In this document: positions 3,872 through 46,512 of the stretch, piece after piece | Layout: the number at the start of each line of letters is the position of its first letter | Position numbering within the stretch: the stretch's first letter is position 1 | Assembly: GCA_023248155.1 (NCBI GenBank) | Contig: JAHFFE010000006.1 | Location: 1-46,512 of the forward strand | DNA length: 46,512 nucleotides | Direction of reading: 5' to 3' | Origin: Candidatus Omnitrophota bacterium | GTDB lineage: Bacteria > Omnitrophota > Gorgyraeia > 1-14-0-20-64-10 | The notes under the pieces: generated by a model | Seen by the model: only the letters and a program-made list of their open reading frames with translations | Told to the model about the DNA's origin: nothing | The model's database searches: none | Made by a program: the position numbers and the translations under genes

Positions 3872-4456
3872 TTATTTTCCCGATCGACCTGAATTTGCAT
3901 GTTCCGGTCGTTCAGGCCGGTTTGGTCGTTCAGGCCGGTTTGGGCGTTCAGTCCGTTCGGGTCGGCCGGAACGCTCAACCTTTTCCATCTTCTCCATCTT
4001 TTTAGTGCGTTCGGGGCGCTCAGATTGGAATTCTTTCCGGGCGGCTTTCGTTTCACTAATCACCGGACCCAGTTTAAATCCGAGATCCTTCGAAATTCTA
4101 CCCCAGCCCTCTCCTCCATCGCGCATTGTCTCTACTTTCTGAAGCGCGTCCGCAGAGGTCGGATAGGTTGCCGGATCGGTTTTGGCAAGCCGGTTGGCCA
4201 TCGATAATCCGATTGTGATTTCTCCCCATCCTTGTCCCTTGCTGCGCAGATCCTGAACGGTGGCGGGGGGTACATTAAACTGCTTAGCCACCGCATCCAC
4301 ACGCTCCGTCTCTGTTGCAGGTTTTGTTTCGTCGATTTCCGTCTGCTCTTCCTGTAATTCTTTCTCATCGGTTTCTTCAGTGGCCGCCCATATTTTCGCG
4401 GCGGGAGCAAGGCCCAACAGACCTGCCAGTAGCAATAACAACATTTTTTTCTTCAT
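3872..4456 (-). CDS. secreted protein with two GWG(E/R)I motifs and an Arg/Pro/Glu-rich tandem-repeat C terminus
   Basis: ATG at 4456 preceded by aggaggaa; signal peptide MKKKMLLLLLAGLLGLAPAAKIWA; RPERTERPNRPERPNRPERPEH tail. Confidence 0.7.
   Translation of the reverse strand: MKKKMLLLLLAGLLGLAPAAKIWAATEETDEKELQEEQTEIDETKPATETERVDAVAKQFNVPPATVQDLRSKGQGWGEITIGLSMANRLAKTDPATYPTSADALQKVETMRDGGEGWGRISKDLGFKLGPVISETKAARKEFQSERPERTKKMEKMEKVERSGRPERTERPNRPERPNRPERPEHANSGRSGK
3904..3956. repeat. 18-bp tandem repeat (ggtcgttcaggccggttt), ~3 copies with divergence
   Basis: Two near-perfect copies and a degenerate third at the 3' end of the 3872-4456 gene; encodes the 6-aa unit RPERPN. Confidence 0.8.
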
Positions 4457-42643: not shown

Positions 42644-43886
42644 CCATTTGAAGCAGTCGGACCCGGAAATTTATCAGTCGATGGTGAGCGAAGCCCGGCG
42701 TCAGCAGGGACATCTCGAATTGATCGCCAGCGAAAACTTCACTTCAATCGCGGTGATGGAAGCCATGGGTTCCGTGATGACCAACAAATACGCGGAAGGG
42801 TATCCGGGCGCGCGCTGGTACGGCGGCTGTCAGTTTGTCGATCAGGCCGAGACGCTGGCGATTGAGCGGGCCAAGGCGCTGTTCGGCGCCGACCATGCCA
42901 ATGTCCAGCCGCATTCCGGATCGCAGGCCAACATGGCTGTCTATTTTTCAGTGCTGGAACCTGGCGATTCAATCATGACGATGGATTTAAGCCACGGCGG
43001 TCATTTGACGCACGGCCATCCCAAGAATTTCTCGGGCCGTCTGTTTAAAGTAATTCCGTACGGCGTCAGTAAAAAAGATGAACGGATTGATTACGACGAG
43101 CTTGAAGCGCTCGCCAAGGCGAACAAACCGAAGATGATCGTCGCCGGTTATTCGGCCTATCCGCGCCAGCTCGATTTCGCGCGGTTCCGCAAGATTGCCG
43201 ATGAAGTCGGCGCGTTGTTGATGGTCGACATGGCCCATTTCGCGGGGCTGGTGGCCGCCGGCGTTCATCCGTCGCCGGTACCGCATGCCGATTTCGTGAC
43301 GACCACTACGCACAAGACATTGCGCGGTCCGCGCGGCGGCATGATTTTGTGTAAAAAAGATTTCGCCAAGAAACTCGACTCGCAGATTTTCCCCGGCATG
43401 CAGGGCGGTCCGCTGATGCACATCATCGCGGCCAAGGCGGTGGCGTTTAAAGAGGCGATGACGCCGGCATTCAAGGACTATCAGCGCCAGATCGTCACCA
43501 ACGCGAAAGCGATGGCTGAAACATTACAGGGCAAGGGTTGGCGTATCGTCTCGGGCGGCACCGACAACCATTTAATGTTGGTTGATATGGCGGCCCGCGG
43601 TTTAACCGGCAAGCAGGCCTCCTCGATCCTGGATCTTGCGCGCATCACCGTCAATAAAAACAGCATTCCGTTTGATACGACTTCACCCTCTGTTTCCGGC
43701 GGTATCCGTTTGGGCACGCCGGCTGTTACGACGCGCGGCATGAAAGAGCCGGAGATGCGCACCATCGCGCAGTTGATCGACCGCGTTCTTACAGCGCCCG
43801 ATGATGCCGCTGCGGCTGCGAAAGTGGCCGAAGAAGTCGAACAGCTGACGAAGGAATTTCCACTTTACCCGGACTTAAAGATTTGA
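42636..43886 (+). CDS. glyA: serine hydroxymethyltransferase
   Basis: [55 protein letters not shown]. Confidence 0.97.
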
Positions 43887-44344
43887 AGTGTCCTTACTGC
43901 GGTAACGGTGAAGACAAAGTCATCGACTCGCGCGAAGCGTCCGATGGCGGTGCGATTCGCCGCCGCCGGGAATGCCTTAAGTGCGAACGCCGTACTACGA
44001 CCTACGAACGGGTAGAGCAGATCCCGATCCTCGTCGTCAAACGCGACGGCCGCCGTGAATCGTTCGACCGTAAAAAACTGCTCAACGGTATCATGAAAGC
44101 CTGTGAGAAACGGCCCGTATCGCTGGAGCAAATCGAAGAACTGATCGATCAGGTCGAGCGGGAAATCGCGCAGGAATTCGACCGTGAAGTTGCTTCTGTT
44201 GAGATCGGCGAGCGCGTGATGCGCCACTTGCATGAACTCGATGAAGTGGCTTATGTCCGGTTCGCGTCGGTCTACCGTTCATTCAAAGACATCAGCCAGT
44301 TCATGGGTGAACTGCGCGACCTGCTGAAGAAGAAGCAGCCCTGA
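43883..44344 (+). CDS. nrdR: transcriptional repressor NrdR
   Basis: [43 protein letters not shown] plus ATP-cone; TTG start overlaps glyA stop. Confidence 0.96.
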
Positions 44345-44345
44345 T
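44313..44345 (+). repeat. nrdR 3' end, copy 1 of imperfect direct repeat flanking the cassette
   Basis: tgcgcgacctgctgaagaagaagcagccctgat; 28/33 identical to 46425-46457. Confidence 0.75.
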
Positions 44346-44583
44346 TTACTGGGTCTATGTTCTGGAAAGTGCAAAAGGCGGTTTCCGGTACATCGGCTCA
44401 ACGCATGATGTTGAGCACCGTCTCGACCGGCACAACTCCGGACACTATCCGCCCACCAAAGAACACCGCCCCTGGAAAGTAATTTATAAGGAAGAACATC
44501 CCACCCGCAGTTCTGCCAACCGCAGGGAAGAGTTCTTAAAAACCGGCCGCGGGAAAGACGCCTTGAAGCGTCTGAAAATCTGA
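44341..44583 (+). CDS. GIY-YIG-type small endonuclease, absent from ORF track (no ATG/GTG/TTG start)
   Basis: Frame reads (L)[79 protein letters not shown]; the codons between the upstream in-frame TGA (44308) and TAC TGG include no canonical start. Confidence 0.8.
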
Positions 44584-44627
44584 ATTGTATTACAAAGAAC
44601 TACAATGTATGTTATGCTTAAAGCATA
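44584..44627. promoter_or_regulatory. promoter/operator region of the toxin-antitoxin operon
   Basis: Inverted repeat ATTGTA(44584)...TACAAT(44606) and palindrome TATGCTT-A-AAGCATA (44613-44627); candidate -35 TTGTAT and -10 TATGTT spaced 17 nt; SD aggag at 44627. Confidence 0.6.
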
Positions 44628-44642
44628 GGAGATATTGCCAAC

Positions 44643-44861
44643 ATGGTTAAGCCCGTATCTGTTCGATTGTCCACTCAGTTAATGCACAGGCTGGAGCGTG
44701 TATCAATAACGGTAGACCGCCCTCGGTCGTATTTAATCCGCAAAGCGGTGGAAAGCTATTTGCAGGAGTATGCTGAATATCAGACTGCCATGAATCGTCT
44801 GAAGGATAAGGATGACAAAATCGTTTCCAGTATGCAGATGAGGAAACGGCTTGGCATCTAA
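44643..44861 (+). CDS. ribbon-helix-helix (CopG/RelB-like) antitoxin
   Basis: KPVSVRLSTQLMHRLERVSITVDRPRSYLIRKAVESYLQEYAEYQTAM. Confidence 0.85.
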   Translation: MVKPVSVRLSTQLMHRLERVSITVDRPRSYLIRKAVESYLQEYAEYQTAMNRLKDKDDKIVSSMQMRKRLGI

Positions 44862-45102
44862 TGTTTTTTATAAGGCCTCGGTCGAGAAAGATTTAAAGAA
44901 ACTTGACAAGCCAACTGCGGCTAAGCTTCTCCAGAAACTGGAAGCGGTTCTTTCTGAAAAACCAAACACGGGGGAGCCGCTCAGCGGAGAGTTTAAGGGA
45001 TTGTTCAAATACCGTATTGGGGATTATCGAATCTTGTACGCTAAGATACCCGAAGGTATTCTGATTGTGAGAATTGGCCATCGCCGCGAGATTTACCGCT
45101 AA
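44851..45102 (+). CDS. RelE/ParE-family toxin
   Basis: FYKASVEKDLKKLDKPTAAKLLQKLEAVL...GEPLSGEFKGLFKYRIGDYRILYAKIPEGILIVRIGHRREIYR; overlaps antitoxin. Confidence 0.88.
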   Translation: MASNVFYKASVEKDLKKLDKPTAAKLLQKLEAVLSEKPNTGEPLSGEFKGLFKYRIGDYRILYAKIPEGILIVRIGHRREIYR

Positions 45103-46440
45103 ATGCCGAAAAATAAGATGAAGTTGAAGAAGCAAATGCCGTTGGACGATATCGAGTTGACGCCCCAGTTTCTCCAGGCGCTGGAGCTGATGGAAAAAAC
45201 AGACAAATGTTTGTTTATCACCGGAAAAGCGGGAACGGGCAAGTCGACACTGCTGAGATACTTCCGGTCAAAAACAAAGAAGAATGTTGTTGTCGTCGCG
45301 CCCACCGGAATAGCGGCCATCAATGTGGAAGGGCAGACGCTGCATTCATTCTTCAAGTTTCCGCCGAGATTTGTCCAGAAAGAAGATATCCGCCGCATCT
45401 CAAAGAACAAGAAATTGATCGAATGCCTGGACACGCTGATTATCGATGAGGTGTCGATGGTGCGGGCTGACCTGATGGATGGCGTTGATCACGCGTTGCG
45501 GGTTAATCGCGGGCAGCCCGATTTTCCGTTTGGTGGGGTGCAGGTGATCTTGTTCGGAGATCTTTTTCAGCTGCCGCCGATTGTGGATCGCGACATGGCG
45601 GAGATTTTCGAGCGGCGCTACGAAAGCCCGTACTTCTTTTCCTCCCGGGTTATTCAGGAAATTCAATTGGACTGTTTAGAGTTGACGAAGATTTACCGGC
45701 AAAGCGAAGCGGAGTTTATTGGCCTGCTTAATAAAATTCGCGATAAGGAATACGACGAGTGCGATCTGAATAAGCTGAACGAAAGAGTTGTATCGGCAGA
45801 CGACAGCGGCGGGGAAGATGAAATTGTTCTTACGACAACCAATCAGCGCGCCGGTGAAATCAATCAAGACCGATTGAACGCGCTGCCTGCTTCAGATGTT
45901 CAGTACGGCGCCAATGTAACCGGCAAGTTCGATGAATCCGCCTATCCGAACGACTCCTTGTTAATCTTGAAGAAGGGCGCCCAGGTGATGATGATCAAGA
46001 ATGATCCCAATAAGCGATGGGTTAACGGGAGCATCGGCCATATTCAGGATTTGTCGGAGCGGTCAATCACGGTGTCGATCGATGGCAAGAGCCATGATGT
46101 CCCAAAGTCGACATGGGAAAAGATCGCGTATCTATACGATGAAGAAACCGGGCGAATTGAATCAAAGGCGGTCGGCACTTTTGAGCAATATCCTCTGAAG
46201 TTAGCGTGGGCCATTACCATCCATAAGAGCCAGGGAAAGACTTTTGACAAGGTGATTGTTGAGCTGGGCAGTGGAGCCTTCGCGCATGGGCAGCTTTATG
46301 TGGCATTAAGCCGCTGTTCCTCTTTTGCCGGGTTGAAGTTGAAACGGCCGATTACGGCAAGAGATGTTGTATTTGATGATCGGATTCTGGAATTTCGGAC
46401 GCATTGGACATCCATGGCGGGTGATGCGCGACCTGCTTAA
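45103..46440 (+). CDS. PIF1/RRM3-like superfamily 1 helicase
   Basis: CLFITGKAGTGKSTLLRYF, VVAPTGIAAINVEGQTLHSFFKFPP, LIIDEVSMVRADLMDGVD, LFGDLFQLPPI, WAITIHKSQGKTFDKV, LYVALSRCSSFAGLKL. Confidence 0.92.
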   Translation: MPKNKMKLKKQMPLDDIELTPQFLQALELMEKTDKCLFITGKAGTGKSTLLRYFRSKTKKNVVVVAPTGIAAINVEGQTLHSFFKFPPRFVQKEDIRRISKNKKLIECLDTLIIDEVSMVRADLMDGVDHALRVNRGQPDFPFGGVQVILFGDLFQLPPIVDRDMAEIFERRYESPYFFSSRVIQEIQLDCLELTKIYRQSEAEFIGLLNKIRDKEYDECDLNKLNERVVSADDSGGEDEIVLTTTNQRAGEINQDRLNALPASDVQYGANVTGKFDESAYPNDSLLILKKGAQVMMIKNDPNKRWVNGSIGHIQDLSERSITVSIDGKSHDVPKSTWEKIAYLYDEETGRIESKAVGTFEQYPLKLAWAITIHKSQGKTFDKVIVELGSGAFAHGQLYVALSRCSSFAGLKLKRPITARDVVFDDRILEFRTHWTSMAGDARPA

Positions 46441-46457
46441 AAAGAAACAACACTGAT
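46425..46457 (+). repeat. nrdR 3'-end echo, copy 2
   Basis: tgcgcgacctgcttaaaaagaaacaacactgat; in the nrdR frame encodes (M)RDLLKKKQH*. Confidence 0.75.
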
Positions 46458-46512
46458 ATTTTTACTCCGAAGCGAATCCTGATCGTTGGCCATTCCAACA
46501 TTGGCGATGTTT
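46425..46512 (+). CDS. N-terminal fragment of an ORF running off the window, possibly glycosyltransferase family 9-like
   Basis: Open frame ...TDIFTPKRILIVGHSNIGDV; RILIVxxSNIGDV resembles GT9 heptosyltransferase N termini; no canonical start visible; fragment too short for certainty. Confidence 0.3.

Follow-up and report, generated by a model that had tools for sequence, protein, structure and literature searches.

Integrative elements of the kind of e14 and phage 21, which occupy icd, restore the 3′ end of the gene that they enter. A gene end is found on both sides of such elements, one of them in the intact gene. The locus described here has the same arrangement. It lies in a 46,512-nt stretch of DNA from a Candidatus Omnitrophota bacterium (contig JAHFFE010000006.1, hereafter the window), next to the gene nrdR. 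In contrast to e14- or phage 21-type elements, it contains no integrase, its repeat is imperfect and its cargo is not a known unit.

Other described systems come close in different respects. In homology-facilitated illegitimate recombination (HFIR), one joint is homologous and the other illegitimate, a microhomology of 3–10 bp being usual (PMC3240628). At the T6SS loci of V. cholerae and at Rhs/CDI loci, a new module enters beside a conserved anchor, and the old gene end is pushed downstream (PMC5361080). The Seg proteins of T-even phages are free-standing GIY-YIG homing endonucleases encoded between host genes, beside their target; flank co-conversion accompanies their spread, and SegB of phage T4 lies in a tRNA cluster (PMC2988022).

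By analogy, the intronless homing of the phage T4 Seg enzymes would be the closest known precedent. As for these enzymes, the GIY-YIG domain of the window (PF01541) is found in a separate gene next to its putative target, in this case overlapping the nrdR stop codon, and, as for free-standing GIY-YIG homing endonucleases in general, its presence at the same site is patchy and empty sites are known. Unlike the Seg enzymes, it is a predicted nuclease with a single small GIY-YIG domain, encoded by a bacterial chromosome. A further difference is that one gene end is left as a scar, as after one-sided repair, and that the sites are the ends of nrdR and of tRNA genes. With HFIR, the locus would share the pairing of a homologous with an illegitimate joint: a candidate right joint is located at the lost helicase stop codon, with GGGTGA common to both sides, whereas a left joint would be visible only with donor and recipient at hand. 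It differs in that its main trace is not a deletion but a repeat, the preserved tail of what would be the recipient's gene, and in its link with a nuclease. Like the V. cholerae T6SS, Rhs and CDI loci, it carries a displaced gene end downstream of a module beside a conserved anchor; unlike them, it has a housekeeping regulator as its anchor, is no effector locus and retains only 33–39 bp of the displaced end.

The nrdR Tail and Its Displaced Copy

Positions 44313–44345 and 46425–46457 are identical at 28 of 33 bases, including an exact 13-mer. These values, given in the initial annotation, were all reproduced, and both copies indeed read as the nrdR-frame C terminus followed by a stop. With a 2-nt gap, the match grows to 44305–44345 against 46419–46457 (GGGTGA--TGCGCG...TGAT). 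The first copy completes the intact nrdR, and the outer edge of the repeat is the edge of the gene (Table 1). A chance match was rejected: the gapped alignment of the tails has a score of 45, compared to 26 at most for shuffled sequences, and five runs of Markov null models gave no pair at 28/33 or better. In the whole 1.9-Mb genome, in which nrdR is single copy, the pattern with up to three mismatches occurs in two places only, which are the two copies of the nrdR tail. The window holds one other same-strand pair of at least 28/33, a local tandem (3905/3923); positions 3905–3955 repeat themselves there at an 18-bp offset with 30/33 identities. The second copy (the echo) is absent from all nrdR loci of relatives compared, and no nrdR tail was found in viral contigs (IMG/VR).

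Table 1. Features of the nrdR locus, in window coordinates.
Feature	Position	Strand	Remark
nrdR, intact	43883..44344	+	GC3 0.66, similar to neighbour genes
nrdR 3′ end, repeat copy 1 (GGGTGAACTGCGCGACCTGCTGAAGAAGAAGCAGCCCTGAT)	44305..44345	+	inside intact nrdR
Small GIY-YIG nuclease gene, 79–80 aa	44341..44583	+	Pfam PF01541, E = 6e-17
Perfect palindrome TATGCTTAAAGCATA	44613..44627	.	5′ of the RHH gene; sequence seen, function inferred
RHH antitoxin-like gene	44643..44861	+	Pfam RHH_3/RHH_1
ParE-type toxin-like gene	44851..45102	+	Pfam PF05016, E = 2e-15
PIF1-like helicase gene	45103..46440	+	Pfam; natural stop lost, final ~6 codons lie within the echo
Displaced nrdR 3′ end (echo)	46419..46457	+	ungapped core 46425–46457
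GT9 glycosyltransferase gene, first codons (IFTPKRILIVGHSNIGDVF)	46458..46512	+	continues beyond N10 gap to scaffold position 47452

In the assembly, the window forms the first contig of a scaffold of 89 kb, and ten N follow it (46513–46522). That the contig stops 55 bp past the echo would suit an assembly artefact caused by mixed strains, as 55 is a common largest k-mer of SPAdes. Yet the longest exact match between the two copies, 13 bases, is too short to mislead an assembler, and the parts of GT9 before and after the gap align with a single subfamily, from which they fall short by about a dozen residues at the gap; such an artefact is hardly credible. As a separate observation, the contig end at 46512, exactly 55 bp past the last base of the echo, could be a k-mer graph branch point at which a cargo-less strain joins.

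The Genes between the Copies and the Right Joint

The two copies bracket genes for a GIY-YIG nuclease, an antitoxin, a toxin and a helicase, an order already read in the initial annotation and now confirmed by Pfam. The only possible starts of the GIY-YIG gene are CTG at 44341, which aligns with the Met of the ortholog in the related genome G008, and ATT at 44344. The stop codon of the ParE gene, TAA, abuts the ATG of the helicase gene, and the RHH, ParE and helicase genes look like one operon; the palindrome TATGCTTAAAGCATA is a candidate operator of this toxin-antitoxin operon. On the right, the ATT at 46458, one base after the stop of the echo, aligns with the start region of GT9 relatives. 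The GT9 and GIY-YIG genes each begin right after an nrdR stop, and neither has an ATG, GTG or TTG start (ATT for the former; CTG or ATT for the latter).

The helicase frame runs into the echo out of the nrdR frame and ends with GDARPA and a stop, as had been noted. For helicases of relatives in the class, the matches end at query residues 431–442, with stop codons soon after. They stop near the start of the echo and do not contain it, contrary to the possibility that the echo belongs to a conserved PIF1 C terminus. Since the helicase stop is gone here and the frame enters the echo, the joint is placed at about 46418–46424. The GGGTGA common to both sides could be a microhomology at this junction.

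Descent of the Echo

The echo is closest to the nrdR of its own genome (28/33, compared to at most 22/33 for the tail of any relative) and hence comes from this lineage or a close one. Its origin from a coding nrdR terminus had been argued from the synonymy of the changes. Descent from the nrdR 3′ end stands; the argument itself is weak. At least four of five changes being synonymous has P = 0.03 under random changes but, as all five mismatches are G/C to A/T, P = 0.32 if only changes of this type are considered. Judging by these few differences, a displaced recipient allele and a decayed copy are both possible.

The same base changes are expected of a decaying non-coding copy, and they would fit a local duplication, in which template switching, as part of repair or of the insertion of a gene in this lineage, gave rise to a second nrdR tail that then drifted to A/T with no second allele involved. 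The single-copy state of nrdR agrees with this. However, a separate event is needed to place the cargo between the copies, and the GIY-linked scars found elsewhere (see below) are left unexplained, which makes this origin decidedly unlikely.

The echo was also compared with GIY-YIG gene ends. A displaced GIY 3′ end was rejected as its source and is a weak lead only (score of 22 vs. 45 for nrdR), the GIY tail ranking eighth among 525 ORF tails of the family, a list that includes the self match and nrdR. The 3′ end of the G008 GIY-YIG gene (L013:10775–10831; ALLKKQH and stop) resembles the echo (LLKKKQH and stop), possibly by chance.

The nrdR–maf Junction in Related Genomes

The nearest named relatives of the window genome are Omnitrophota MAGs. 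The order purD-sua5-lmwptp-rpiB-glyA-nrdR is conserved across the family. In G001, G006 and G007, nrdR directly adjoins maf, in convergent orientation, and the site is empty; in G005, G008, G004 and G002, other, unrelated genes lie beside nrdR or maf. Being empty in three relatives and filled with unrelated genes in others, the nrdR–maf junction is a variable spot. In the window genome (G000), it is occupied by two pieces of foreign DNA, namely the GIY-RHH-ParE-helicase segment and the GT9 gene. In L013/L182, L014, L015 and L017/L183, the junction contains, among others, an ABC-F-like gene, an ATPase and unknown ORFs (names given by inspection).

The proposal of a ~2.1-kb insertion cassette is borne out as far as the insertion goes, by the three genomes in which nrdR and maf are joined; these empty sites also contradict a shared nrdR-GIY-YIG-TA-helicase order in all relatives. 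The genes do not form a travelling unit, and no relative was found in which nrdR directly precedes the gene starting at ~46458. Extension of the right flank past 46512 led through the N10 to the rest of GT9, a gene absent from the nrdR–maf junctions of the relatives.

A GIY-YIG gene beside nrdR is found in G000 and G008 but not in G001, G006 or G007. G008 belongs to another genus; its ortholog is 81% identical, begins with ATG and lies less than 200 bp after nrdR, with no nrdR scar at the locus. G006, which lacks the gene, is the probable sister of G008, with a tree support of only 66. No difference in history between the left and right flanks was seen in a comparison by identity only. No mosaic GC signal was detected in nrdR, and the identity of its 3′ end between G000 and G008 is not raised, at a divergence too high for judging co-conversion.

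An Insert without Integrase

The insert encodes only the GIY-YIG, RHH, ParE and PIF1 helicase proteins; no recombinase, integrase or transposase was found in it, in agreement with the initial annotation. The genome, rated 98.5% complete, has two tyrosine recombinases only, of 307 and 312 aa, on another contig; by length and by inspection of their sequences, both look like XerC/XerD. Relatives of the helicase are present in 83 of 292 genomes of the class, and none of the 29 helicase loci read has a GIY, RHH, ParE or nrdR gene beside it. The cassette as a unit was rejected, as there is neither co-location of its genes nor a repeat around the helicases at these loci, and the same cassette with matching terminal repeats was not found elsewhere. 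A phage or plasmid origin of the helicase was likewise set aside: homologs exist there, all below 60% identity, and are uninformative.

An integrase-type element that has its attachment site at the 3′ end of nrdR and depends on a recombinase encoded elsewhere, acting in trans, would account for the gene-end direct repeats flanking a 2.1-kb segment, for a repeat whose outer edge coincides with that of the gene and for the varying nrdR–maf content among relatives. It is very improbable, given that the insert has no recombinase and the nearly complete genome only XerC/XerD-like tyrosine recombinases, that no relative has the repeat, that the genes are not co-mobile elsewhere and that the tail is absent from IMG/VR. 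The integrative-element reading is partly supported, namely as an insertion with one gene end whole and the other displaced; its form as an integrase element is not supported.

A Proposed One-Sided Import beside a GIY-YIG Gene

The explanation that we prefer, with about an even chance of being right, is that one-sided recombination displaced the 3′ end of the recipient's own nrdR, which is now seen as the echo, with the GIY-YIG nuclease as the likely trigger. Donor and recipient, the direction of transfer, the cutting and the end-joining are what we infer. The donor DNA would have come from a related cell and carried an nrdR end, then the GIY-YIG gene and the RHH-ParE-helicase operon, with no homology beyond. 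The left joint would have formed by homologous recombination within nrdR, and the right one by an illegitimate event ~33–39 bp before the recipient nrdR stop, right at the helicase's own stop. This would have yielded a complete nrdR, followed by the cargo and then by the residual nrdR tail in front of GT9, the recipient's downstream gene; the recipient's nrdR allele would have ended in CTTAAAAAGAAACAACACTGA, with GT9 as the very next gene. As a free-standing homing endonuclease, the GIY-YIG protein may have cut a nuclease-free nrdR near its end. Repair would copy the nuclease from the donor by homology on the side of the target gene only, the other end being joined without homology, and a fragment of the recipient gene, reaching from the cut to the gene edge, would remain on the far side of the nuclease.

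The import itself is favoured by a repeat that is unique and far above chance, by the loss of the helicase stop at the junction and by the variability of nrdR–maf; a role of the nuclease as trigger is suggested by the scars of similar kind beside related GIY-YIG genes at tRNA loci (see below). The genome also has the competence gene ComEC, which equally suits the same one-sided import (HFIR) after a random break in natural transformation or conjugation, with the GIY-YIG gene as a mere passenger. The product matches described HFIR (PMC3240628), and the displaced gene ends and orphan genes of V. cholerae T6SS and Rhs loci are explained in this way (PMC5361080). Nonetheless, HFIR normally deletes recipient DNA of similar size, and a random break leaves unexplained why a nuclease abuts an intact gene end here and at 15 tRNA loci, 13 of them with a scar on the far side; a passenger role is unlikely.

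Several observations stand against import triggered by the nuclease. No donor and no recipient genome (nrdR–GT9 without cargo) was found. The nrdR–GIY locus has no palindromic hairpins like those of the tRNA loci and has 1.8 kb of extra cargo. The G008 locus is scarless, and nrdR shows neither mosaic GC nor raised 3′ identity to G008. To our knowledge, none of the small GIY-YIG proteins with a single domain like this one is a proven homing enzyme.

GIY-YIG Relatives at tRNA Genes

Relatives of the GIY-YIG protein are present in 20 genomes of the class at E ≤ 1e-15, its own included, and none was found in viral contigs. In 15 of 25 orientable loci, an intact tRNA gene (Pro, His, Ser, Asn, Glu, Ala or Arg) adjoins the GIY-YIG gene, mostly within 25 bp; around helicase or GT9 genes, taken as controls, any tRNA was present in 4 of 45 loci. 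In 13 of the 15 (L131, L186, L188–L190, L193–L196, L198 and L200–L202), the 5′ part of this tRNA recurs as a copy on the far side of the nuclease, with scores above all 100 shuffles. The copies begin at nt 1 and end at nt 11–47, the best ones near the anticodon (L131 nt 40, L190 nt 39, L186 nt 47, L194 nt 46). As a rule, one or two strong hairpins break them up, and at several loci, the start codon of the nuclease follows 1–18 nt after the copy. At some loci, the tRNA contains the stop codon of the GIY gene. The nrdR-linked proteins group among the tRNA-linked ones in a tree with weak support. A limited literature search revealed no published description of this pattern.

Under one-sided homing, a nuclease upstream of a tRNA gene would leave the tRNA 5′ piece upstream, and a nuclease downstream of nrdR would leave the nrdR 3′ tail downstream. 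The tRNA pieces are the mirror image of the nrdR tail that would be expected of a nuclease upstream rather than downstream of its target. A broader reading, possible rather than probable, is that a family of chromosomal GIY-YIG mobile elements enters gene ends in Omnitrophota and spreads through intronless homing that is one-sided, the nuclease being attached to the intact end and the recipient fragment left on the far side; the window would hold a protein-gene case in which a toxin-antitoxin-helicase operon was brought along. The pattern at tRNA genes is of greater interest than the nrdR locus and opens the idea to testing.

If this is true, a minimal nuclease of ~80 aa would account for the integrase-free entry of small accessory segments into tRNA genes and the ends of housekeeping genes in an uncultured phylum, and for the survival of these genes. 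It would also give a testable role to the many annotated small GIY-YIG genes that still lack an explanation. The signature (an intact gene, a nuclease and, beyond the nuclease, a gene-end scar) lends itself to searches throughout bacteria.

Additional copies of a tRNA piece with hairpins, without a nuclease, were observed near the intact tRNA in L202, L195, L203 and L188. They look like non-autonomous palindromic insertions. In L203, a hairpin is apparently inserted at the anticodon of a tRNA-Ser-like gene.
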